Origin: a virus | Direction: 5' to 3' (one strand) | Length of the DNA: 57,543 bases | Virus record (IMG/VR): IMGVR_UViG_3300021343_000001 | Span: 1 to 57,543 of that record | In this document: piece after piece, positions 12,494 to 46,012 of the stretch | How the letters are laid out: each line of letters opens with the position of its first letter | Numbering within the stretch: the stretch's first letter is position 1 | Notes under the pieces: generated by a model | What the model was told of the DNA's origin: nothing | What the model saw: only the letters and a program-made list of their open reading frames with translations | Databases searched by the model: none | Made by a program: the position numbers and the translations under genes

Positions 12494-12669
12494 ATGACGG
12501 ATTGAGGTTCGCCGGTATGATGATCCTCGGATCGATCGCGGTCGCGCTGATCCTCGGGTGGTTCGTCTGGCTTGGAAGTCAACACCAATCGCGCGAGGAT
12601 TTCATCGCCTGTCAGAAAAGCAACACGTTCGAGCAGTGCATCGAATGGCGCGAGCAGGGGAGGTTTTGA
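12490..12669 (+). CDS. Small single-pass membrane protein (59 aa)
   Basis: ATG 12490 overlaps the previous stop. One hydrophobic segment (MMILGSIAVALILGWFVWLG, residues 10-29) and a hydrophilic C-terminal tail with two Cys (residues about 42 and 51). Confidence 0.7.
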   Translation: MNDGLRFAGMMILGSIAVALILGWFVWLGSQHQSREDFIACQKSNTFEQCIEWREQGRF

Positions 12670-13343
12670 TGGACCACCTCACGCTCATGGCGGACACGCA
12701 TTGCCGCACGTTCGACATCGCCCCGGCCGAGATCCTCATCCACGCGGGCGACTTCTGCAACGCAGGCACGACGACCGAGCTGCGCGAACAGATCGAGTGG
12801 CTCGCGACCCTGCCAGCCGAGCACAAGGTTGTCATCGCCGGGAACCACGACATGTGCCTTCAGCGACCTGGGCAGCGAGAGCCGATGCTCGCGTTGTTCG
12901 AGAAGCACGGCATCACCTACCTCGAGGATTCGGGGTGCGAGGTGCTGGGATACAAGATCTGGGGCTCGCCCTACTCACCGACTTATGGGCGTTGGGCGTT
13001 CATGGAAAGCGACCAGGAACTTGTCGAGAGGTTCGCGCGCATCCCGCAAGGCATCGACATCCTGATCGTGCATGGTCCGCCCTACGGTCTCGGTGACTGG
13101 GTGCCTCGTGGCGAGCATGTCGGCTCACGAGCCCTCGTGCCACACATCGCGAGGGTCAAGCCGCGCTTGACGGTGCATGGGCATATACACGAGTGTGCGG
13201 GGCGGTGGAGGCATCCTCACGGCGGTTCGTGCGTGAATGCCTCGTGTGGGATGCGTCAGGTTTACGAGACGCACAACGGGCAGGTGTTTCGCGCGGTCGC
13301 GTGGGGCGATCCTGTCGTGTTGAGCAAGGGGGATATGCGATGA
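12669..13343 (+). CDS. Calcineurin-like metallophosphoesterase
   Basis: 224 residues. The metal-binding motifs occur in order: ADTHCR (DxH, residues 8-13), HAGDFCN (GD), AGNHD (about residues 60-64), IVHGPPYG (H, about residue 137) and HGHIHE (GHxH, about residue 175). Spacing matches the MPPED-like class of short phosphodiesterases. It likely hydrolyses a phosphodiester, nucleotide or nucleic acid; the substrate cannot be read from sequence. It sits just upstream of the terminase large subunit. A second, larger member lies at 44522-46012. Confidence 0.85.
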   Translation: MDHLTLMADTHCRTFDIAPAEILIHAGDFCNAGTTTELREQIEWLATLPAEHKVVIAGNHDMCLQRPGQREPMLALFEKHGITYLEDSGCEVLGYKIWGSPYSPTYGRWAFMESDQELVERFARIPQGIDILIVHGPPYGLGDWVPRGEHVGSRALVPHIARVKPRLTVHGHIHECAGRWRHPHGGSCVNASCGMRQVYETHNGQVFRAVAWGDPVVLSKGDMR

Positions 13344-13762
13344 ACATCGAGCGGACGCAACGCTGGCTTCGTCAATTTATGCGAGGCGAAATCGAGGCAT
13401 CGGAGGGTGATGTTCGCGAACTTGCAGATGCGCTTCGTGTGCTTTTTTACCGGTGGGCGGGGCTCACAGATCAGGAGCGCGCAAGCATATCTGACGAACT
13501 ATTGGAAGTCGTCGTAAGTGTTCGCGCTGAGGCAGAATGGCTTGTGCTCGAGCGTCTCGATGGTACATGTCAGCACTTACGGGCGAGTACGATTGATGAT
13601 TGGCGCGTTGTTGTTGGTGACTCCATGGGTCATGTGCCGCGACTGCCCTACATCGAGGGTGAAGGGCTGTGGATCGACATCTCGCCTCACGACATCGATG
13701 GCATCACGTCGCAATGGTTCAAGGCTATCCAGGCGGCTGATGCGTTCAGGAGGCGGCATTGA
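13340..13762 (+). CDS. Hypothetical protein (140 aa)
   Basis: ATG 13340 overlaps the phosphoesterase stop. Helical N-terminal half and a C-terminal part with GHVPRLPYIEGEGLWIDISP. No family recognised. Overlaps the TTG start of the terminase. Confidence 0.7.
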   Translation: MNIERTQRWLRQFMRGEIEASEGDVRELADALRVLFYRWAGLTDQERASISDELLEVVVSVRAEAEWLVLERLDGTCQHLRASTIDDWRVVVGDSMGHVPRLPYIEGEGLWIDISPHDIDGITSQWFKAIQAADAFRRRH

Positions 13763-15285
13763 CACTCGGTCTCGATGAATCACCACAGGAGGTGCTGCGC
13801 CGCGCGAGGGCGGCGAGGGCTCGGAGGGACTTCGGTTACTTCGTGCGCCTCGTCAAGCCTGAGTACGATGTGCAGTGGTTCCATGACGTGATCATCGAGG
13901 AACTCGCGCAGGCGACGCAGCACGAGCGCGGCGGTCGCGTCGGGCTCGCACTTCCACCAGGGCACGCCAAATCGGAGTATGCGATCCTCTATTGTGCGTG
14001 GATGGTCGCGCGAGATCCTGACATTCAGATCGCCTATGTGACCTACAACCTCGACTTCGCGAAGGTCCAGTTCAAACGGCTGAAGGATCTCGTAAGTAGT
14101 GCCCGATATGTGCACTACTTTGGCAGGCTGATCAACGACGCGCTCGCGGTCGATGCCGATGGCAAGGAAAACACAAAGGTCAAGTTCGAGATCACGAGCG
14201 GATCAGGTTGGGTTGCTGCGGCAGGCTTTGGCAGCGGGCTCGATGGTCTGCGTTGCGACCTGATCGTGATCGACGACCCGTTCAAAAAGGACGAGGCGTT
14301 TTCGCCTACGGTGCGCGAGGTGCGATGGAAGACCTACGTCGGTACGATCCTCCAGCGTCGCCGTCCTGACCGCCCATTGCACATCGTGATGCTCTTCACG
14401 CGCTGGCACCTCGACGACCTCACCGGGCGTTGCAAGAAGCATGAGCCTGATCAATGGCGATGGGTGGAGATCGAGGCGCTGCGCATGTCAGAACTCGACT
14501 CGCAGAAGGGCAGTCACATCGACGACCCGCGCGAGGATGGCGAGGCGCTCTGGGAAGCGGTCGCGACAGCGCAGGAACTCGAGGCGTACCAGACGCTCGA
14601 CGAGGGTCTGTTCTGGGCGGTGCAGCAACAGACCCCGATCCCGGCAGGCGGCGCGTTGTTCAAGAAGGACTGGTTCTCGCAGCGCTGGCAGCGTCTCACG
14701 CCGACGGGTGGCACGCTCTATCAGTCGTGGGATTTCAGGCATGGCGGCAAATCGGATGCAGGTTCGTATGCCGTGGGGCTGCTCGCGCTTCAGTTCGATC
14801 ACCAACCCGAGAAGCTCTACATCCTCTCGATGAAGCGCGCGCGGTGGTCGCCTGACGAGACGACAGATCACTTCAACGCGGCGCTGAATGACCCGCTGTG
14901 GGGCATGGCGTCGACGATCATCATCGAGAACGCGGGCGATGGAAAGAACATCCTCGCGCACTTCAAACACCGCCACAACGGGCTCGTCTCGATCAACCCG
15001 GCTGGCTCGGGCTCGAAGGTTCGACGCGCCCGCGCGACGGTGCCTTACGCCGCACGCGGGTCGGTCGTGTTGCCTGCTGTCGAGATCGCTTCGGATGAAC
15101 CATGGATCGATGCGTTCCTCGCGGAGGTGACGCTGTTCACCGACCTCGGGAGCGGCACCGGCAATGACGATATTGTCGACGCTTTGTCACAGTTGATCGA
15201 TTACGTGTATGATGCGAGCGACAGCGCCCTCGATGATCGGGGCTTGGCGCGCGAGGCTTGGAAGATCCTGATGGGGACAGCATAG
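13759..15285 (+). CDS. terL: Terminase large subunit
   Basis: 508 residues. The TTG start at 13759 is well placed after AGGAGG (13748-13753); no ATG is available nearby. The ATPase domain has Walker A LPPGHAKS (residues 65-72) and Walker B LIVIDD (168-173), then the coupling motif MLFTRWH. The nuclease domain begins near YQSWDF (first Asp) with IIIENAG and NDDIVDALSQ supplying later acidic residues. It packages DNA into the prohead through the portal. The neighbouring portal gene starts 10 bases on. Confidence 0.95.
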   Translation: MTLGLDESPQEVLRRARAARARRDFGYFVRLVKPEYDVQWFHDVIIEELAQATQHERGGRVGLALPPGHAKSEYAILYCAWMVARDPDIQIAYVTYNLDFAKVQFKRLKDLVSSARYVHYFGRLINDALAVDADGKENTKVKFEITSGSGWVAAAGFGSGLDGLRCDLIVIDDPFKKDEAFSPTVREVRWKTYVGTILQRRRPDRPLHIVMLFTRWHLDDLTGRCKKHEPDQWRWVEIEALRMSELDSQKGSHIDDPREDGEALWEAVATAQELEAYQTLDEGLFWAVQQQTPIPAGGALFKKDWFSQRWQRLTPTGGTLYQSWDFRHGGKSDAGSYAVGLLALQFDHQPEKLYILSMKRARWSPDETTDHFNAALNDPLWGMASTIIIENAGDGKNILAHFKHRHNGLVSINPAGSGSKVRRARATVPYAARGSVVLPAVEIASDEPWIDAFLAEVTLFTDLGSGTGNDDIVDALSQLIDYVYDASDSALDDRGLAREAWKILMGTA

Positions 15286-15294
15286 AGGGCACAC

Positions 15295-17634
15295 ATGAGT
15301 GAGGCAGGGCAAGAGAAGGCGTTCAGGTGGGATACGGCAGCGGGTATCCTCCAGAACTTCGTAACGAAGATGGGCACGCAGCGTGCGCGCAAGCAGTCGA
15401 ACATGGTGGGCGAGCGCGTGTGGTTCACGCCTGCCCAACTCGACATCCTCGCACAACATGGTCTCGTCAAGCGCATCAACGGCGAACTCCCTGCCGACGC
15501 AGGCAGCAAGCCTGAAGTCGTCGCGAGCAATGACGTGGCTCCTGCGCTCGAACAGCAACTGCGCGACCTGAAGGTCAGGCAGAAGTTTCGCAAGGCAGGC
15601 ACCGCCGCGCGCAGGCAAGGCGGCGCGGTTGTCTGGATCACATGCGAGGGTGGCGGCGAGACATACGAGCCTCTCGATCTCTCGACGATCAAGCGAGTGA
15701 CGAACCTCGTCGTGATCGACTCGAGCGAGTTGTCTGTCGAGACGTTTAAGCCAAAGAGTGACGATGATCGCGTGCAGATCACGGCAGGTTACTACGTCGA
15801 CGAGCCACGTCGTGCGGATTATCGCGAGCCACTCGCCTACCGATACACGCCATCGCAGGGCGGTAAGGAGCGCGTGATCCATGCGTCGCGCCTGATCAAG
15901 TTCTATGGCGATGACGTGCCCGATCGCTTGCGTGATCAGTACCAGGGATGGGGAGCGCCCGCTGTCGAGGCTGTGTGGGGCACGCTCTCGTCTGCGCTGC
16001 TCGCGCTCGACGGCGGCGCTGAGATCATCTCCGAGATGGGGCTCACCGTCTTTCAGATCGACAACCTGAAAGAGATCCAGTCAGGTGGCGAGCAAGGGGG
16101 ACTCGGCTCGTGGATGGCGCTCGTGGCAGAAGCGAAGAGCACGCTTCGATCACTCCTGCTCGCTCCGGGTCAGTCCGTCGAGCGTCTCGACATGTCGGTC
16201 GCGGGATGGTCCGAGGTGTACGATCGCATCGCGCAGGAGCTGTGCGCAGAGGCGGCGATGCCTGTCACGAAGTTGTATGGTCAGGCGCCGGGCGGGCTCT
16301 CGACTGACGACGCGAGCGCGTGGCGCAACTGGTCGGCGCGCGTGAGCGATTACCAGGACGATCAGCTGATCCCCGCCTACCTCTACCTGCTCGATGTGTT
16401 GTGTGCCGCGAAGGAGGGGCCGTGCAAGGGCAAGCGCCCCGAGACGCTCGATGTGGAACTCGCGCCATACGAGGTGCCCACCGAACTCGAAGAAGCGGAG
16501 ATCGCCAACAAGTGGGGCTCGACCGTCAACACGCTCGTGCAGATGGGCATCATCGACGAGGACGAAGCGCGCGAAACGATGCGCCGCGTCAAGGGGATGC
16601 GACTGCAAGAAGAGGAGGTCGAAGACGACACGACGGGGCAAGAGACGCTCGCGGCGCTCATGGCGCAGGCGGGTGAGCAAGGCGCGACGCAGGAGCCGGG
16701 CGCACCCGTCGGTGGTGACATCGAGAAGGCTCAAGACGCGGCGCTCAACGGCGCTCAGATCACGGCTGCTGCTAACATCGTGTCGAGCGTGTATCAGGGG
16801 CTCTACCCCGCAGAGCAGGGCGCACAGCTCCTCATGCTCGGCAACCCGACGCTGACGCCCGAGCGTGCACGCGCGATCGTCGGCGCAGGCAACCCGCAGC
16901 CTGTTGATCAAGAGCAGCCTGTCGAAGACGCAATGCGCGTCGATCCCTACGCAGGCATCGACGACCCCAAACTCCCTGAGAACGTCAAGGCGCTCTCTCC
17001 CCGCAAGCGTGCCGCATTCGTCGAGGCGTTCAACAGCGCATATGAGGAGAGCGATGGTGACGAGGGCAAGGCGTTCGCCACGGGCTACGCAGCAGCGAAG
17101 CGCGTCGACTCGATGCGTCATGACTACGGCGCGCGCTCGATGTGCTTCGCGCTGATGCCAAGCGAGGAGGTCGCAGCAGCGTTCGCGCCGTTGTCCGAGA
17201 TCCCACAAGACGAATTGCACGCGACCTTGCTCTACTTGCCCGACGTGGCAGACGAGGAGGTCGATCGCGTGCTCGAGACGGTCGAGGCGTTCGCGAGCAA
17301 GCAAGCGCCCATGAGGATGCGCACATCTGGACCTGGTACGTTCATCAACGGCGACGCCATCGCGCGGATCATGCTGCTCGAGGGGCTCGGGTTGACCGAG
17401 ATGCGCACCGACCTCAAACGCGAGGTCGAGGACATCGACGCGCTCGGTCTGCAAACTCACGACTTTACGGCGCACATGACGCTCGGGTATCATGACCGCG
17501 CCGACTACCCCGCTGAGTTGCTCGCGCAGATGGCGATGGTGGAAACGGACGAATGGAGCGCAGGCGAGATCATCGCGTGGCGCAATGGCGACATCGTGGC
17601 GCACATGCCACTGAAAGGAGGAGAGGAGAGATGA
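15295..17634 (+). CDS. Portal protein (DUF1073) fused to ChaB-like and 2H phosphoesterase (Acb1-like) domains
   Basis: 779 residues, far longer than an ordinary portal (about 430-550). Residues 1 to about 440 are DUF1073 portal, starting with the usual NFVTKMGTQRARKQSN and including KLYGQAPGGLSTDDASAWRNW. A Glu/Gln-rich linker leads to a ChaB-like segment (about 560-603, LPENVKALSPRKRAAFVEAF). The C-terminus (about 615-775) is a 2H phosphoesterase with both HxT motifs: HATLLY (H642, T644) and HMTLGY (H727, T729). Pfam-era naming links DUF1073 proteins carrying this C-terminus to Acb1, which cleaves cyclic oligonucleotide signals of CBASS defence; activity in this protein is inference. Confidence 0.85.
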   Translation: MSEAGQEKAFRWDTAAGILQNFVTKMGTQRARKQSNMVGERVWFTPAQLDILAQHGLVKRINGELPADAGSKPEVVASNDVAPALEQQLRDLKVRQKFRKAGTAARRQGGAVVWITCEGGGETYEPLDLSTIKRVTNLVVIDSSELSVETFKPKSDDDRVQITAGYYVDEPRRADYREPLAYRYTPSQGGKERVIHASRLIKFYGDDVPDRLRDQYQGWGAPAVEAVWGTLSSALLALDGGAEIISEMGLTVFQIDNLKEIQSGGEQGGLGSWMALVAEAKSTLRSLLLAPGQSVERLDMSVAGWSEVYDRIAQELCAEAAMPVTKLYGQAPGGLSTDDASAWRNWSARVSDYQDDQLIPAYLYLLDVLCAAKEGPCKGKRPETLDVELAPYEVPTELEEAEIANKWGSTVNTLVQMGIIDEDEARETMRRVKGMRLQEEEVEDDTTGQETLAALMAQAGEQGATQEPGAPVGGDIEKAQDAALNGAQITAAANIVSSVYQGLYPAEQGAQLLMLGNPTLTPERARAIVGAGNPQPVDQEQPVEDAMRVDPYAGIDDPKLPENVKALSPRKRAAFVEAFNSAYEESDGDEGKAFATGYAAAKRVDSMRHDYGARSMCFALMPSEEVAAAFAPLSEIPQDELHATLLYLPDVADEEVDRVLETVEAFASKQAPMRMRTSGPGTFINGDAIARIMLLEGLGLTEMRTDLKREVEDIDALGLQTHDFTAHMTLGYHDRADYPAELLAQMAMVETDEWSAGEIIAWRNGDIVAHMPLKGGEER

Positions 17635-18107
17635 TACCAGTCATTATTGAGAGCCCGTTCGCGGGTGATGTCGAGCGAAACAAGGCGTACTTGCAGGAGT
17701 GTATCAGGCACGCGGTGCGCAATGGTGAAACGCCCTACGCATCCCACCAGATGCTCACCGACGCACTCGACGATCTCGATCCAGCAGAGCGCAAGTTGGG
17801 TATCGACGCAGGGCTCGCACTCGGCGATGTGATCGTGAGCGCGGGAGGCAAGCACATCTTTTATCTCGACCTCGAGATGTCAAACGGCATGTGCTACGCG
17901 CTCGAGCACGCAGCGTCGCTCGGGCGAACTGTCGAGTTCCGATGGCTCTCGGGGAGTCTGAGCGAATACACGATGGCTGCGGCGTTTCCTGCACGTTACA
18001 TTGTCGACGGAACGCCCATCGCCAAGACGCCGCTTTTCGGAGCTGCGCGTTCGCACTATCTCAAGGCCAAGATTCGACGAGACGCAAAGAAAGGAGGAGA
18101 GGAATGA
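17631..18107 (+). CDS. DUF7768/DUF4406-like nucleoside-deoxyribosyltransferase-fold protein
   Basis: 158 residues, behind AGGAGGAGAGGAGAG with ATGA overlap. The N-terminus IIESPFAGDVERNKAYLQEC, then GETPYASHQMLTDALDD and ERKLGIDAGLALGD, is the signature of the DUF4406/DUF7768 group, related in fold to nucleoside 2-deoxyribosyltransferases and SLOG proteins. The biochemical role is not established. It is the second nucleotide-fold protein in the genome after the one at 2132. Confidence 0.75.
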   Translation: MIPVIIESPFAGDVERNKAYLQECIRHAVRNGETPYASHQMLTDALDDLDPAERKLGIDAGLALGDVIVSAGGKHIFYLDLEMSNGMCYALEHAASLGRTVEFRWLSGSLSEYTMAAAFPARYIVDGTPIAKTPLFGAARSHYLKAKIRRDAKKGGEE

Positions 18108-19418: not shown

Positions 19419-19723
19419 TGGGCGCATATTCGAGTTATGTGGTGACATGGTGCAAGATTCTTGGTGTTAAACTTCAAGTGTATGTCGAAGGCAACATGTA
19501 CGAGTTTGTCGAGATCGAGCCAAATGATTGGATGGGGCGAGATATATCGTTGCAGTTGAGGCACGACGGCAACGGTCATTTCGTCGGCTTTTCGTGGGGG
19601 CACGCACCGGGTGAAAAGTACGAGTGGGAAGGAGCGTACAAACGCGCTGAACTTGAGGCGTGGTTTATCGAGAACGGCTTGCCCGATGGCACCGAAGTTG
19701 TCTCGATCGATTGGAGTCTTTGA
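19418..19723 (+). CDS. Hypothetical protein (101 aa)
   Basis: ATG 19418 overlaps the previous TGA, behind GTGGAGG. Alpha/beta with YEFVEIEPNDW and FVGFSWGHAPGEKY. Not recognised. Confidence 0.7.
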   Translation: MGAYSSYVVTWCKILGVKLQVYVEGNMYEFVEIEPNDWMGRDISLQLRHDGNGHFVGFSWGHAPGEKYEWEGAYKRAELEAWFIENGLPDGTEVVSIDWSL

Positions 19724-19725
19724 CC

Positions 19726-20472
19726 ATGCCACGTCGCAAGCCTCCCGCGCGCGAACTGACGAAGACCATCGAGCAGCAGTTCGCGCGCGACATTCTCAAA
19801 CTCATGACGCCCGCTCGCCAGCTCATGCGCGCGATGAAGGCAGCCGAGCGCCAGCGCAACGACGCGCTCGGTGATTCGGTCCGCGACCTCTCGAGCGCCA
19901 TCACCTCGTGGTTGCAAGGCATGATCAGCGACAAGGCCGCGCGCGCTGTCGCAGAGCGTCAGATGAAGCGCGTGGAGCGGTTCGGTCGACTCGACTTCGA
20001 GCGGTGGTCCGAGATGGTCGGCATTGATCCGAGAGAGGCGAAGGGGCGCGCTGCTGTTGCCGTCGATGCGATGATGGAGAACGCCATCCTCGAGTCCATG
20101 GGTTACATCAAGGACATCCCGGTGCAACTCGCGCAGCAGGTGAGCGATGAGTTCTCCAACGCGCTCCTGCTCGGGCAACGCGGCAAGTCGCTCGCCACGA
20201 TCTTCGAGGAGCGCCTCGGTGTCGCGGAGTCGAGGGCGAAACTGATCGCGAGAGACCAGAGCACGAAGGCGCTCGGCAACATGCAGAAGGCACGTCAGCA
20301 AGCGCTTGGCGTGACGAGGTATGAGTGGGTAACGGCGGGTGATGAGAGGGTGCGACCCTCGCACGCAGCGCTGAATGGCAAGGTGTTCGACTGGAACGAC
20401 CCGCCGCCCGAGGGGCACCCAGGCGAACCCGTTGCTTGCAGGTGCGTGGCTGCTCCGATCCTCGACGACTAG
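19726..20472 (+). CDS. Phage head morphogenesis protein (Mu gpF-like)
   Basis: 248 residues. The C-terminal 85 residues contain AKLIARDQSTKALGNMQKAR, then GVTRYEWVTAGDERVRPSHA, then GKVFDWNDPP and GEPVACRCVA, the hallmark of the Mu gpF / SPP1 gp7 minor head protein family, which acts at the portal vertex during assembly. ATG 19726 is chosen; longer readings overlap the preceding gene. Its TAG stop shares the palindrome CTAG (20469-20472) with the stop of the convergent gene. Confidence 0.85.
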   Translation: MPRRKPPARELTKTIEQQFARDILKLMTPARQLMRAMKAAERQRNDALGDSVRDLSSAITSWLQGMISDKAARAVAERQMKRVERFGRLDFERWSEMVGIDPREAKGRAAVAVDAMMENAILESMGYIKDIPVQLAQQVSDEFSNALLLGQRGKSLATIFEERLGVAESRAKLIARDQSTKALGNMQKARQQALGVTRYEWVTAGDERVRPSHAALNGKVFDWNDPPPEGHPGEPVACRCVAAPILDD

Positions 20473-22400: not shown

Positions 22401-22511
22401 CATCAACCCATGATAAAAAATATCGACCGATCATGAGGAGGGGCAATCTGTTGCCCGTATGTCGTGGCACCCCTATTTTGCATGAGGGAAAGTCATCGCT
22501 CCGAGGGATGC

Positions 22512-23834
22512 ATGAATCGAGTTCATAGGTACGATCAAGGCACGCTGCGCAAGCCGCACCGCACCGAGGAGGGCTTCCTCTATTTCGAGTGCGTCGCGAC
22601 TCGTGCGGGTGTGTTCGAGTATCGCCGCGCCGATGGCTCCATACGGCGCGAGTGGCGACCACGGGAAGAGGTCGCGCGCGCTGATAGCCTCGCGACCCTC
22701 GGTCGTAAGCCTGTCACGCTCACGCACCCTGAAGAGGGCGGCGTGCCTGTCCTCGTGACGCCTGGCAACGCGAAGCAATTCGCAGCGGGCGCAGTTGGCG
22801 AAGAGGTCGAGGTGATCGACCGCGCCGACGACCTGACCGAAGAAGAGGGTCCATACGTCCGCGTGACTGGCAGCGTGTACCGCTCGGACGCCATCGACGC
22901 GATCGAGTCAGGTATGCGCGCTGTCTCGTGCGGATACGAATGCGACCTCGAAGAGAAGGCGGGCACCACGCCCACGGGCGAGCGATACGACTGCATCCAA
23001 CGCAACATCACATACAATCACCTCGCGATCGTCCCTCGTGGTCGAGCGGGAGATGTCGCCGTCCTTCGCGCTGACACAGATGATGCTGTGCAGTGGGGCG
23101 GAATCACACCACAGCACAGCCAAAAGGTGACGCATATGAAGCGCAAGAACCTTCGCGGGGACGAATACGAGATCCCCGCCGATCAGTCTGCCCTCGCTGA
23201 ACTCCTCCTCTCCGATGTCCGCACGCTTAAGGCGGATATGGAAGAGATGAAAGAGGACATCGACGGCATGGAAGAGGAACTGAAGAAAGAGGACGCCGAC
23301 CCTTACGCCGATCGCATCGACGCCATGCAAGAGAAGATGGACGCTCAGGGCGAGATGCTCGACAAGATCGTCAAGATGCTCGCATCCATGGGCGGCGAGG
23401 AACTCGAGGAAGCAGGCGAGATGGAGCGCGAGGACCGCGCCGACGCATTCAAGAATATGGATGACGGCGCGCTGAAAGCTCACCTCGAGAAGGTCCGCGC
23501 CGACGCCAAGGCTGAAGCGCTCGCGCGCCTCGAACTCGAAGGCAAGGCGACCGCGCTCAAGATCGACGGCATCGACAAGCTCGACGACCGCAAGTTGCTC
23601 GAGGCAGTCGCCGCGAAAGCGACCGGCACCGAGGTCCGCGCCGACGCTTCCGATGACTACCTGCGTGGCATGATCGCCAACGTGCGCATCGACGACGGCG
23701 CGAGTCAGGAAGGCGCGTCCTACCTTGGCACGGGCAACCGTCAGGTCAACACCGACGGCGCGCTCTCGGGCAAGGATCTCATGCTCGCCAACCTCGCGAA
23801 AGCGCGTCAGGCACGCCTCGACGCTCAACAGTGA
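22512..23834 (+). CDS. DUF2213 prohead protease with C-terminal scaffold
   Basis: 440 residues. Residues 1 to about 195 are the DUF2213 protease: GRKPVTLTHPEEGGVPV (candidate catalytic His), GMRAVSCGYECDLEEK (candidate Ser) and ITYNHLAIVPRGRAGDVAVL. From about residue 209 the protein is highly charged and helical, a scaffold-like coiled coil (RTLKADMEEMKEDIDGMEEE). An in-frame ATG at 23136, with an AAAGGTG site, starts exactly at the scaffold boundary, so a separate scaffold may be made as in lambda C/Nu3. ATG 22512 is chosen over the longer frame for its GAGGG site. Confidence 0.85.
   Translation: MNRVHRYDQGTLRKPHRTEEGFLYFECVATRAGVFEYRRADGSIRREWRPREEVARADSLATLGRKPVTLTHPEEGGVPVLVTPGNAKQFAAGAVGEEVEVIDRADDLTEEEGPYVRVTGSVYRSDAIDAIESGMRAVSCGYECDLEEKAGTTPTGERYDCIQRNITYNHLAIVPRGRAGDVAVLRADTDDAVQWGGITPQHSQKVTHMKRKNLRGDEYEIPADQSALAELLLSDVRTLKADMEEMKEDIDGMEEELKKEDADPYADRIDAMQEKMDAQGEMLDKIVKMLASMGGEELEEAGEMEREDRADAFKNMDDGALKAHLEKVRADAKAEALARLELEGKATALKIDGIDKLDDRKLLEAVAAKATGTEVRADASDDYLRGMIANVRIDDGASQEGASYLGTGNRQVNTDGALSGKDLMLANLAKARQARLDAQQ
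23136..23834 (+). CDS. Possible internal-start scaffolding protein
   Basis: Nested in the DUF2213 gene, same frame. It would be 232 residues, starting MKRKNLRGDEYEIPADQ, with coiled-coil helices and the C-terminal LANLAKARQARLDAQQ tail that in scaffolds often contacts the capsid protein. The ribosome site is weaker than most in this genome, so the ratio to the full-length product, if any, would be modest. Confidence 0.4.
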   Translation: MKRKNLRGDEYEIPADQSALAELLLSDVRTLKADMEEMKEDIDGMEEELKKEDADPYADRIDAMQEKMDAQGEMLDKIVKMLASMGGEELEEAGEMEREDRADAFKNMDDGALKAHLEKVRADAKAEALARLELEGKATALKIDGIDKLDDRKLLEAVAAKATGTEVRADASDDYLRGMIANVRIDDGASQEGASYLGTGNRQVNTDGALSGKDLMLANLAKARQARLDAQQ

Positions 23835-25015: not shown

Positions 25016-25927
25016 ATGCCGACCACGCAAATCAACGGCCTCTCCGCCTTTACCGGAGAACAGCTCATCTCGCACGCGAACCGCGTGTATGAGGAGGTCT
25101 TGCCTCCGCTCAACAGCGACAAGGTGATGACCCCCACCGGGTCCGAGCACAAGTTCATGGCGCAGATCGAGAAGCTCGTCTCGCAGCACGTCGGGCAGGC
25201 TGATTGGGTCAGTGACGACGGGCGCGACATTCCTCGCGCCAACAGCGTCACGATCCGCGACCTCTACAACAACGCGCTCTTCGGTTGCTCCTACGGGTTC
25301 AACTACAGCGAGCAAGGCGCAGCGCAGAAGGTCGGGCTCGGTCTCCTCGATCGCCGCGCTCGCGCATGTCGCCGCGCGATGGAGTCGTTTCGCAATGAGG
25401 TCTTCTTCGTCGGCTCGACCGCGAAGCAGATCTACGGCGTGAGCAACAACCCGTATGTCCCTCGCATCACCATCGACGCGACGGACTTCCAGGCAGGCGC
25501 AGATCCAGACAACACGCTCGCCGCGTTGCATGGGATGGAGAACCAGGTTGACGAGCAGAGCAACCAGGCGTTCCAGCCTGACGTGCTCGCGATGCCGCAG
25601 ACCTACTACAACTTCATCGCGACGGCGCGCGCGTCGACGCTCAACAGCGAGACGATCCTCACGGTCTTCCTGCGCAACGCGCAGTGGATCAAGTCGGTCA
25701 TCTCGATCCGCGAGTTCAACACCGCTGGTCCTGCCGGGCTGCCAATCATGGTCGCGCTCTCGACGCAATCGCCCGACTTCATCGAGAACATCGTGCCCGA
25801 GGAACTCGAGATCCTCGCGCCGCTGCGCACCTCTCCGCTCGAGACTACCGTCTCGATGGTCGGTGAGACTGCAGGCATGATCACCGAATACCCGATCGGG
25901 CACCTGATCGGCGAGTTCGACGAGTGA
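25016..25927 (+). CDS. Major capsid protein (DUF2184-like)
   Basis: 303 residues behind AGGAG. The order DUF2213 - cement - capsid and motifs such as TEQLISHANRVYEEV at the N-terminus, SVTIRDLYNNALFGCSYGFN, ARACRRAMESFRNEVFFVG and the closing MITEYPIGHLIGEF point to the DUF2184/encapsulin-like HK97-fold capsid family. It forms the icosahedral shell. A perfect 10-bp hairpin follows the stop and may set its expression apart from the neck genes. Confidence 0.88.
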   Translation: MPTTQINGLSAFTGEQLISHANRVYEEVLPPLNSDKVMTPTGSEHKFMAQIEKLVSQHVGQADWVSDDGRDIPRANSVTIRDLYNNALFGCSYGFNYSEQGAAQKVGLGLLDRRARACRRAMESFRNEVFFVGSTAKQIYGVSNNPYVPRITIDATDFQAGADPDNTLAALHGMENQVDEQSNQAFQPDVLAMPQTYYNFIATARASTLNSETILTVFLRNAQWIKSVISIREFNTAGPAGLPIMVALSTQSPDFIENIVPEELEILAPLRTSPLETTVSMVGETAGMITEYPIGHLIGEFDE

Positions 25928-44521: not shown

Positions 44522-46012
44522 ATGAGCCTTGCAGACAAGGTGCGCGGGTGGCTCGCAGAGCACGACCCGACGCTCGAGAAGTACGCAGACAAGAGCAGCG
44601 CCGATGTAGCGCGCATGATCGCAGACGATGGGGTGATCCCTCACGCGAGCGTGCAAAGCGCCGCGCGAGCGTATCGAAAGATGCTCGCTGGCGAGATTCC
44701 CGCACCAGTTCAGGACGATGGCGAGGATCGCGAAGGGGTCGAGGAGGTCGACGCCGACGCGCCAGACACCGGCGATACCGTCGCGCTCGACTGGGACAAC
44801 AACAGGTATCTGTTCTCGTTTGTCGAGAAGGGCAGCGCGACGCCATGGGATGCCGACTTCAAAGAGATCAGCGAGTGGGCTTGGTGGTACACACACCAGG
44901 GCGAGAACCGCACCGCTCGAGACTGCTGCAACCTCGCTTACGAGGAGCACGGGCGCACGATCACAGAGGCGTGGTTCAGGCGCGCGATGCGCATCCTCGG
45001 GCTGCTCAAATCCTCGCCACCGCTCGCGCCTCACGAACTCGAGAAGTATCCTCGAGCCGAGCAGCAAGAGCGCATCATCTTCCAGCGCAGGCAGGCGCGC
45101 GCGCAACGGGCAATCACCTCGAGCGAGCGAAGGCAGTGGAGGCGCATCGCGGAGCAAGCGCAACGCGACCTCGAAGACCAAGACCGCGCGATCGAGCTGC
45201 TCGCCGGACTCGTCAACAGCGCCCCAGTGCGAGAGATCGCCTACACCTACCCCGAGAAGACCTCGCCCTACCTCGCCGTCGCGGGTGCGTTCGATGTCCA
45301 CATCGGCAAACGCACGGACACGGGCGGGCTCGACGCGACGATCGAAGACTTCCTCACGGCTGGCGAGAAGCTCGCGCGGCGCATCGCGATGTGCGGCACA
45401 CCCGAGAAGATCCTCGTCGCGTTCGGCGGCGACTACTTTCATGTTGACACGAAGGAAGGCACGACCACGGCGGGCACGAGACAGGACGTTGACGCGAGCA
45501 CCGCGCGCATCATCAACTCTGGCACGCACGCTGCCATCGAATACATCGAGATCATGCGCGAGGTCGCACCGGTCGAGGTGATCGTGATCGCTGGCAACCA
45601 TGACGCGACCCTGACGGCAGGGCTCGCGACCGCGCTGGAGATCCGCTACGCGCACATCAACGCGGTGGAGTTCACCTTCTGCGCAGACACGATGCAATAC
45701 GCGCGGTTTGGCGACTGCCTGCTCGCCTTCGAGCACGGCGACGGCCCGAAGCAAAAAGACCTCGCGAACCTCATGTCACACGACGCGAGGCAGCGAGGCT
45801 GGTTGTGGAAGAAAGGGTTTGCGTTCGTCGGACACCTGCATCACGAGCACGCTTACGACATCGGCGGCGTGACGGTGCTCCAGTGCCCCTCGCTCGCGCA
45901 CGCGGACGCCTGGCACGCAAAGAAGGGATTTCGCATGTCGACGCCCTCGCACGCGGCTTACCTGTTCGATCGCGAGGAGGGGCTGATAGGCGCGCTACGC
46001 GCTACGCTGTAG
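44522..46012 (+). CDS. Metallophosphoesterase, SbcD/Mre11-like phage type
   Basis: 496 residues. The C-terminal half has the metal motifs: AFDVHIGK (DxH), FGGDYFHVD (GD), IAGNHDATL (GNHD) and FVGHLHHEHA (GHxH) plus VLQCPSLAHADAWHAKKGF. The N-terminal half has a putative winged helix (NLAYEEHGRTITEAWFRRAM) and a long coiled coil (RRQWRRIAEQAQRDLEDQDR). It probably acts as a DNA exo/endonuclease or repair phosphoesterase. The last 18 bases overlap the convergent leftward gene. Confidence 0.8.
   Translation: MSLADKVRGWLAEHDPTLEKYADKSSADVARMIADDGVIPHASVQSAARAYRKMLAGEIPAPVQDDGEDREGVEEVDADAPDTGDTVALDWDNNRYLFSFVEKGSATPWDADFKEISEWAWWYTHQGENRTARDCCNLAYEEHGRTITEAWFRRAMRILGLLKSSPPLAPHELEKYPRAEQQERIIFQRRQARAQRAITSSERRQWRRIAEQAQRDLEDQDRAIELLAGLVNSAPVREIAYTYPEKTSPYLAVAGAFDVHIGKRTDTGGLDATIEDFLTAGEKLARRIAMCGTPEKILVAFGGDYFHVDTKEGTTTAGTRQDVDASTARIINSGTHAAIEYIEIMREVAPVEVIVIAGNHDATLTAGLATALEIRYAHINAVEFTFCADTMQYARFGDCLLAFEHGDGPKQKDLANLMSHDARQRGWLWKKGFAFVGHLHHEHAYDIGGVTVLQCPSLAHADAWHAKKGFRMSTPSHAAYLFDREEGLIGALRATL

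Follow-up and report, generated by a model that had tools for sequence, protein, structure and literature searches.

The portal gene of a contractile-tailed phage was found to encode, in one frame, a DUF1073 portal protein which ends in a 2H phosphoesterase domain with an intact catalytic tetrad. From sequence comparison this C-terminal domain is LigT-like and was filed neither as Acb1 nor as ThpR. The gene lies at positions 15295–17634 (+ strand) of the 57,543-nucleotide stretch of viral DNA that we analyzed as a whole (the window; IMG/VR record IMGVR_UViG_3300021343_000001). We read it as the gene of a head-tail portal whose 2H phosphodiesterase would be delivered as cargo and would act early in infection on a nucleotide substrate, a reading to which we give about an even chance of being correct.

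Domain architecture of the portal protein

The gene starts with ATG and encodes 779 residues arranged as DUF1073 portal, linker, ChaB-like segment and 2H phosphoesterase. The portal core (Phage_portal_3/DUF1073, residues 49–407, positions 15439–16515, +) matched PF06381 with an E value of 6.8e-52 (176.8 bits against a curated cut-off of 33.8; 2.6e-53 in the search of the record) and also matched the PDB portals 8hds, 9l01, 9jlf, 9b41 and 8fvh. Among PDB sequences portal structures matched the first half of the protein, with Pam3 8hds the best, and structures of the LigT/ThpR type matched the tail, while PHROGs returned a portal match at 6.2e-77 and a weaker match of residues 614–741 to an 'RNA ligase' family. 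The core is followed by the C-terminal part of the portal and a linker (residues 408–550, positions 16516–16944, +) which contains the motif ALNGAQIT and is homologous to the portal of locus L103 up to about residue 550. The next segment (residues 560–602, positions 16972–17100, +) matched ChaB PF06150 under the Pfam cut-off (E 0.0067 with the whole protein; 1.7e-4 and 22.5 bits against a cut-off of 27 with the fragment alone), and the label 'ChaB-like' that had been given to it earlier is apt.

The 2H domain occupies residues 615–775 approximately (positions 17137–17619, +) and was recognized by 2_5_RNA_ligase2 (PF13563, residues 636–759, E 4.9e-10, 40.1 bits against a cut-off of 27), by LigT_PEase (PF02834, residues 637–683, E 9.5e-7, 29.4 bits against a cut-off of 23.3), by the PDB sequences 1vdx (4.2e-6) and 5h7e (2.9e-5) and by hhalign. 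The two catalytic motifs, H642-A-T644 (positions 17218–17226, +) and H727-M-T729 (positions 17473–17481, +), were read from the translation and the alignment, and together with the superfamily model matches they place the domain in the 2H superfamily. The earlier note on this DNA had described the product as a DUF1073 portal that continues into a 2H phosphoesterase, both HxT motifs being intact; its coordinates, protein length and motif positions proved exact when the translation was re-read, and both domains score over their Pfam cut-offs.

The G+C content at third codon positions was 0.73–0.84 in each block of 100 codons and uniform along the full 779-residue frame. Since codon-position composition is uniform throughout, portal and tail form a single coding frame. 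Read-through or an assembly artefact as the source of the fusion was ruled out by the same codon composition.

Acb1 domains on other DUF1073 portals

The earlier note had stated that DUF1073 proteins are associated with the name Acb1. The association itself is real, occurring in 18 prophage portals and in the Pam3 portal, but these belong to a different lineage from the window portal. The 18 portal ORFs with a C-terminal Acb1 domain were found among the fetched DUF1073 loci, on genome contigs, and are mostly from alphaproteobacterial prophages. The tail of one of them (locus L034) matched the Acb1 model PF23474 at 4.7e-44 and the FBB1 Acb1 sequence (7t26) at 7.8e-11, and its structural model (pLDDT 88) superimposed on Acb1 7t27 with Z 15.6 and 2.1 Å over 132 residues. 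The portal of cyanophage Pam3 (PDB 8HDS) contains an Acb1 domain at residues 469–618 (7.9e-35). 8HDS was missing from the listed fold matches of the good portal-Acb1 model although its sequence holds Acb1, and the domain may therefore be unresolved in the Pam3 map. Like the window protein, the Pam3 and prophage proteins are DUF1073 portals with a C-terminal, HxT-bearing 2H domain; unlike the window's, their 2H domains are genuine Acb1. The scan of viral contigs gave 70 distinct portal ORFs, all of them lacking an Acb1 tail. The name 'anti-CBASS Acb1' is attached to plain DUF1073 portals because a subset carries genuine Acb1, while most of the ORFs examined do not.

Identity of the 2H domain

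The tail had been called 'Acb1-like', and at family level this did not hold. PF23474 gave no match in the window protein at E<=1, nor in the record at E<=10, while the same model finds the L034 portal as a positive case at the E value given above. In hhalign comparisons the window 2H domain aligned to the actinophage head 2H proteins at 97.9% (E 6e-13) and to host ThpR proteins at 96.0% (E 4.7e-9); on its own it reached only 3.6% probability (E 0.012) against an Acb1 profile built from the 18 portal-Acb1 domains and T4 57B, and the portal-Acb1 domains scored 100% against T4 57B. In a tree of the domains all Acb1 sequences formed their own clade (99/95) with the window outside it. The window domain fell with ThpR, at modest support (83/88) and on a long branch; long branches make this placement unsure. 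The nearest solved structures by sequence were ThpR/LigT and drCPDase (1vdx, 5h7e). Because the profile comparisons, the tree and the PDB matches all favor LigT/ThpR over Acb1, we call the tail LigT-like, and since it reached only 34.0 bits against the cut-off of 65.7 of the ThpR equivalog model TIGR02258, it is not assigned as a ThpR equivalog. Judged by profile, the window 2H domain is outside all characterized anti-CBASS families, though it may be distantly related to Acb1 and may act like it.

We consider it improbable that the tail is nevertheless a true Acb1, that is, an anti-CBASS nuclease which has diverged. Its superfamily, its tetrad and its point of attachment are those of the genuine portal-Acb1 proteins, and a joint profile of the window and actinophage 2H domains, which matched LigT/ThpR best in the PDB (4.3e-10), also reached the Burkholderia phage Acb1 structure (1.1e-4) and the Acb1 profile (95% in hhalign). 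The PF23474 search, the comparison of the window domain alone with the Acb1 profile and the exclusion of the window from the Acb1 clade stand against it. Acb1 and its active site were defined by Hobbs et al. 2022 (PMC9117128). The HxT/HxT of the window matches the Acb1 tetrad columns (H44, T46, H113, T115), a tetrad common to the whole superfamily, but at the positions where Acb1 stacks on the base or contacts the adenine (T4 Y12, W74, F107, E141 and W147) the window has D, I, T, G and R, where the Y12 column is misaligned and unreliable and several portal-Acb1 rows vary as well. A structural model of the window 2H domain was poor (pLDDT 58, pTM 0.58); its best fold matches, drCPDase (Z 4.4) and LigT, were weak, and the absence of Acb1 structures among its best 50 fold matches carries no evidential weight with so weak a model. 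A literature search for the Burkholderia phage BCSR5 enzyme found no paper.

A domain of this kind could also serve RNA end-processing, as a 2',3'-cyclic phosphodiesterase of the LigT/ThpR type which resolves the cyclic phosphates that host defense RNases or toxins leave on cleaved tRNAs or mRNAs, and which destroys no signaling nucleotide. We hold this to be the less probable course, although the ThpR/LigT and drCPDase structures, the hhalign score with host ThpR and the side of the tree on which the window falls all speak for it, the last with the reservation about long branches given above. The window shares HxT/HxT with the LigT/ThpR RNA 2',3'-cyclic phosphodiesterases and finds its best solved-structure matches there, and it differs from them in being fused to a virion protein and in scoring under the ThpR equivalog cut-off. 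Model searches of the record found neither the ATP-grasp RNA ligase PF09414 nor RtcB, which disfavors a simple or complete RNA-repair pathway and leaves a stand-alone 2',3'-cyclic phosphodiesterase plausible; a search for the T4-type ligase PF09511 was uninformative because its controls were silent. According to Iyer et al. 2017 (PMC5512222) such 2H domains never associate with RNA ligases.

Conservation of the tetrad and 2H domains in phage heads

The tetrad was intact in the window, in the actinophage 2H proteins and in 18/18 portal-Acb1 domains, with threonine changed to serine at the second motif in two, and this conservation argues for selection on catalysis. Loss of the HxT residues in relatives, which the earlier note had named, together with a lack of activity, as the sign of a structural role only, was thus not seen in any of the 2H domains compared. 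The nearest phage relatives of the window tail lie in the head gene blocks of unrelated actinophages. They are either stand-alone 2H proteins (Gordonia phage Wizard gp17, Rhodococcus phage E3 gp74) or 2H domains joined to a MuF or protease protein (GMA2 orf10, AWGoat gp18, ValentiniPuff gp7). Like the window's, these 2H domains are sited in the head block, and they are the closest phage 2H sequences found; unlike the window's, none is on a portal. Head proteins have repeatedly been chosen as carriers of 2H domains. The stand-alone 2H genes of Wizard (L004:4953-5546) and E3 (L008:3953-4462) are annotated 'RNA ligase' within the head block.

An exchangeable portal C-terminus

The portals most closely related to the window protein, at approximately 40% identity, match it over the whole portal and on to about residue 550, after which they continue into a different domain. 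The portal of L103, the nearest relative, shares ALNGAQIT with the window protein, and the tail score of the pair was 111, where shuffled sequences reached 64 at most. When the nearest portal relative was used as the query, matches were mostly to that relative's own, very widespread C-terminal domain. The domain of about 100 residues which ends the nearest portal relatives (TPPxGV...RARDLxNGRPVS...WGGDxGRxW; L103:5998-6294 and about 75 other loci) turns up on a great many viral contigs and had no Pfam match over cut-off.

Tails were counted over all loci that had been fetched, and these counts depend on locus sampling and are not population frequencies. No tail, a short tail or a cut by the contig end was recorded for 65 of the 88 DUF1073 ORFs on genome contigs and for 30/70 on viral contigs, where a DUF5872-like tail was present on a further 36/70. 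Two cyanophage DUF1073 portals, those of PaV-LD and CL131, carry a pyrophosphatase tail. A single ORF of great length (L011:2426-6334) in Aphanizomenon phage CL131 comprises DUF1073 portal, pyrophosphatase and MuF. Because the tails differ past the shared portal (Acb1, pyrophosphatase, DUF5872, none or other), we regard the portal C-terminus as a changeable cargo slot. In its stronger form, which we advance tentatively and hold somewhat less probable than not, the DUF1073 portal C-terminus would be a dedicated effector slot for loading nucleotide-processing enzymes into the head, and the window would be an independent refill of it with a LigT-type 2H domain, whose substrate would be unlike that of Acb1 and which would enter along with the genome to counter defenses in advance.

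The portal subunit is made late in infection. The tail may be read as a part needed for assembly of the portal or capsid, or as an enzyme confined to the cytoplasm, where it would act late in infection on portal that has not been assembled, in either case with no delivery by the virion. The timing of portal synthesis counts for this, as do the many DUF1073 portals that manage with no tail (the 65 of 88 above). We judge it unlikely: every 2H domain in the comparison retains the catalytic residues, and replacement by unrelated enzymes such as pyrophosphatase would be expected of cargo more than of a structural element. The MuF polymorphic toxins of temperate phages (PMC5576092) resemble the window protein in being head proteins with an exchangeable C-terminal effector; in the window the carrier is the portal, and neither a toxin gene nor an immunity gene was seen.

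Proposed role in infection

In the delivered-cargo reading the 2H enzyme would be appended to the portal through a flexible linker and the ChaB-like segment, which may be helical. In portal proteins the C-termini make up a crown turned toward the inside of the capsid, and as many as 12 enzyme copies could therefore be held within the head. In phage P1 cryo-EM showed the crown to be the C-terminal portal domain, with the distal C-terminus disordered (PMC12810830). The tethered enzymes might be injected alongside the DNA or be released by the maturation protease, and a portal-tethered copy would have to unfold to pass the channel or else be cut free. At the start of infection the target could be a cyclic (oligo)nucleotide immune signal or the 2',3'-cyclic phosphates left by defense RNases. 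Were the tail present in the virion, the enzyme would confront the cell ahead of all phage gene expression, at the stage at which immunity based on signals can most easily be forestalled. The Pam3 portal is already in the PDB, and this makes the question of delivery testable now.

The anti-defense role that the earlier note inferred for the tail is a reasonable proposal, and its general form has already been published. Fusions of 2H domains to MuF or portal domains were described with RNase action or degradation of immune nucleotides as the proposed function (Iyer et al. 2017, PMC5512222), and a 2022 survey of NAD-ADPr systems in viruses presented 2H-MuF/portal fusions again, with packaging and injection (PMC9503650); portal-2H fusions with a delivery rationale are therefore published twice. 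The window protein, with its 2H domain on a portal, belongs to the class of Iyer et al. 2017 and follows the architecture and the logic of head packaging and injection set out in both papers, which describe the class in general and not the combination of DUF1073, ChaB-like and LigT-like domains specifically. The present analysis adds that the window tail is not Acb1, that other DUF1073 portals bear genuine Acb1 at this position, and that the position has been refilled repeatedly.

Occurrence and genomic context

The combination of DUF1073, ChaB-like and LigT-like domains was absent from the phage and plasmid records and from the other fetched loci. A second carrier of the fusion, IMGVR 3300021419_000007, is 100% identical across 10,519 bases, and because of this identity over 10.5 kb it represents the same population and is not an independent confirmation; the exact fusion of DUF1073, ChaB-like and 2H is known from one population. 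Single-sequence searches of viral contigs with the window gene returned this identical sister record and nothing more, and neither a tighter portal alignment nor a degenerate DNA motif found further carriers of the tail, only the L103–L107 relatives.

The portal gene sits in a head cluster. The terminase large subunit gene (13759–15285, +; phrog_38 2.1e-76) is directly upstream and stops 10 bases before it, and downstream are genes for a MuF-like head morphogenesis protein that bears no effector tail (19660–20472, +; PF04233 7.4e-24, phrog_324 8e-57), a DUF2213 head maturation protease (22464–23834, +; PF09979 7.9e-35, phrog_530 1.1e-69), which is a candidate for freeing the portal tail, the major head protein (25016–25927, +; phrog_264 2.8e-44) and a tail sheath. 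An ORF resembling DUF7768 and nucleoside 2-deoxyribosyltransferase (17553–18107, +; PF24963 9.2e-24, phrog_355 8.5e-15) shares its first 82 bases with the 3' end of the portal gene and is a second possible nucleotide-processing enzyme in the head block. Just 5' of the terminase gene a calcineurin-like phosphoesterase is encoded (12558–13343, +) which matched the PADLOC candidate defense family PDC-S10 at 8e-63, and in the tail region a protein encoded at 44522–46012 (+) had a weak C-terminal metallophosphoesterase match under cut-off.
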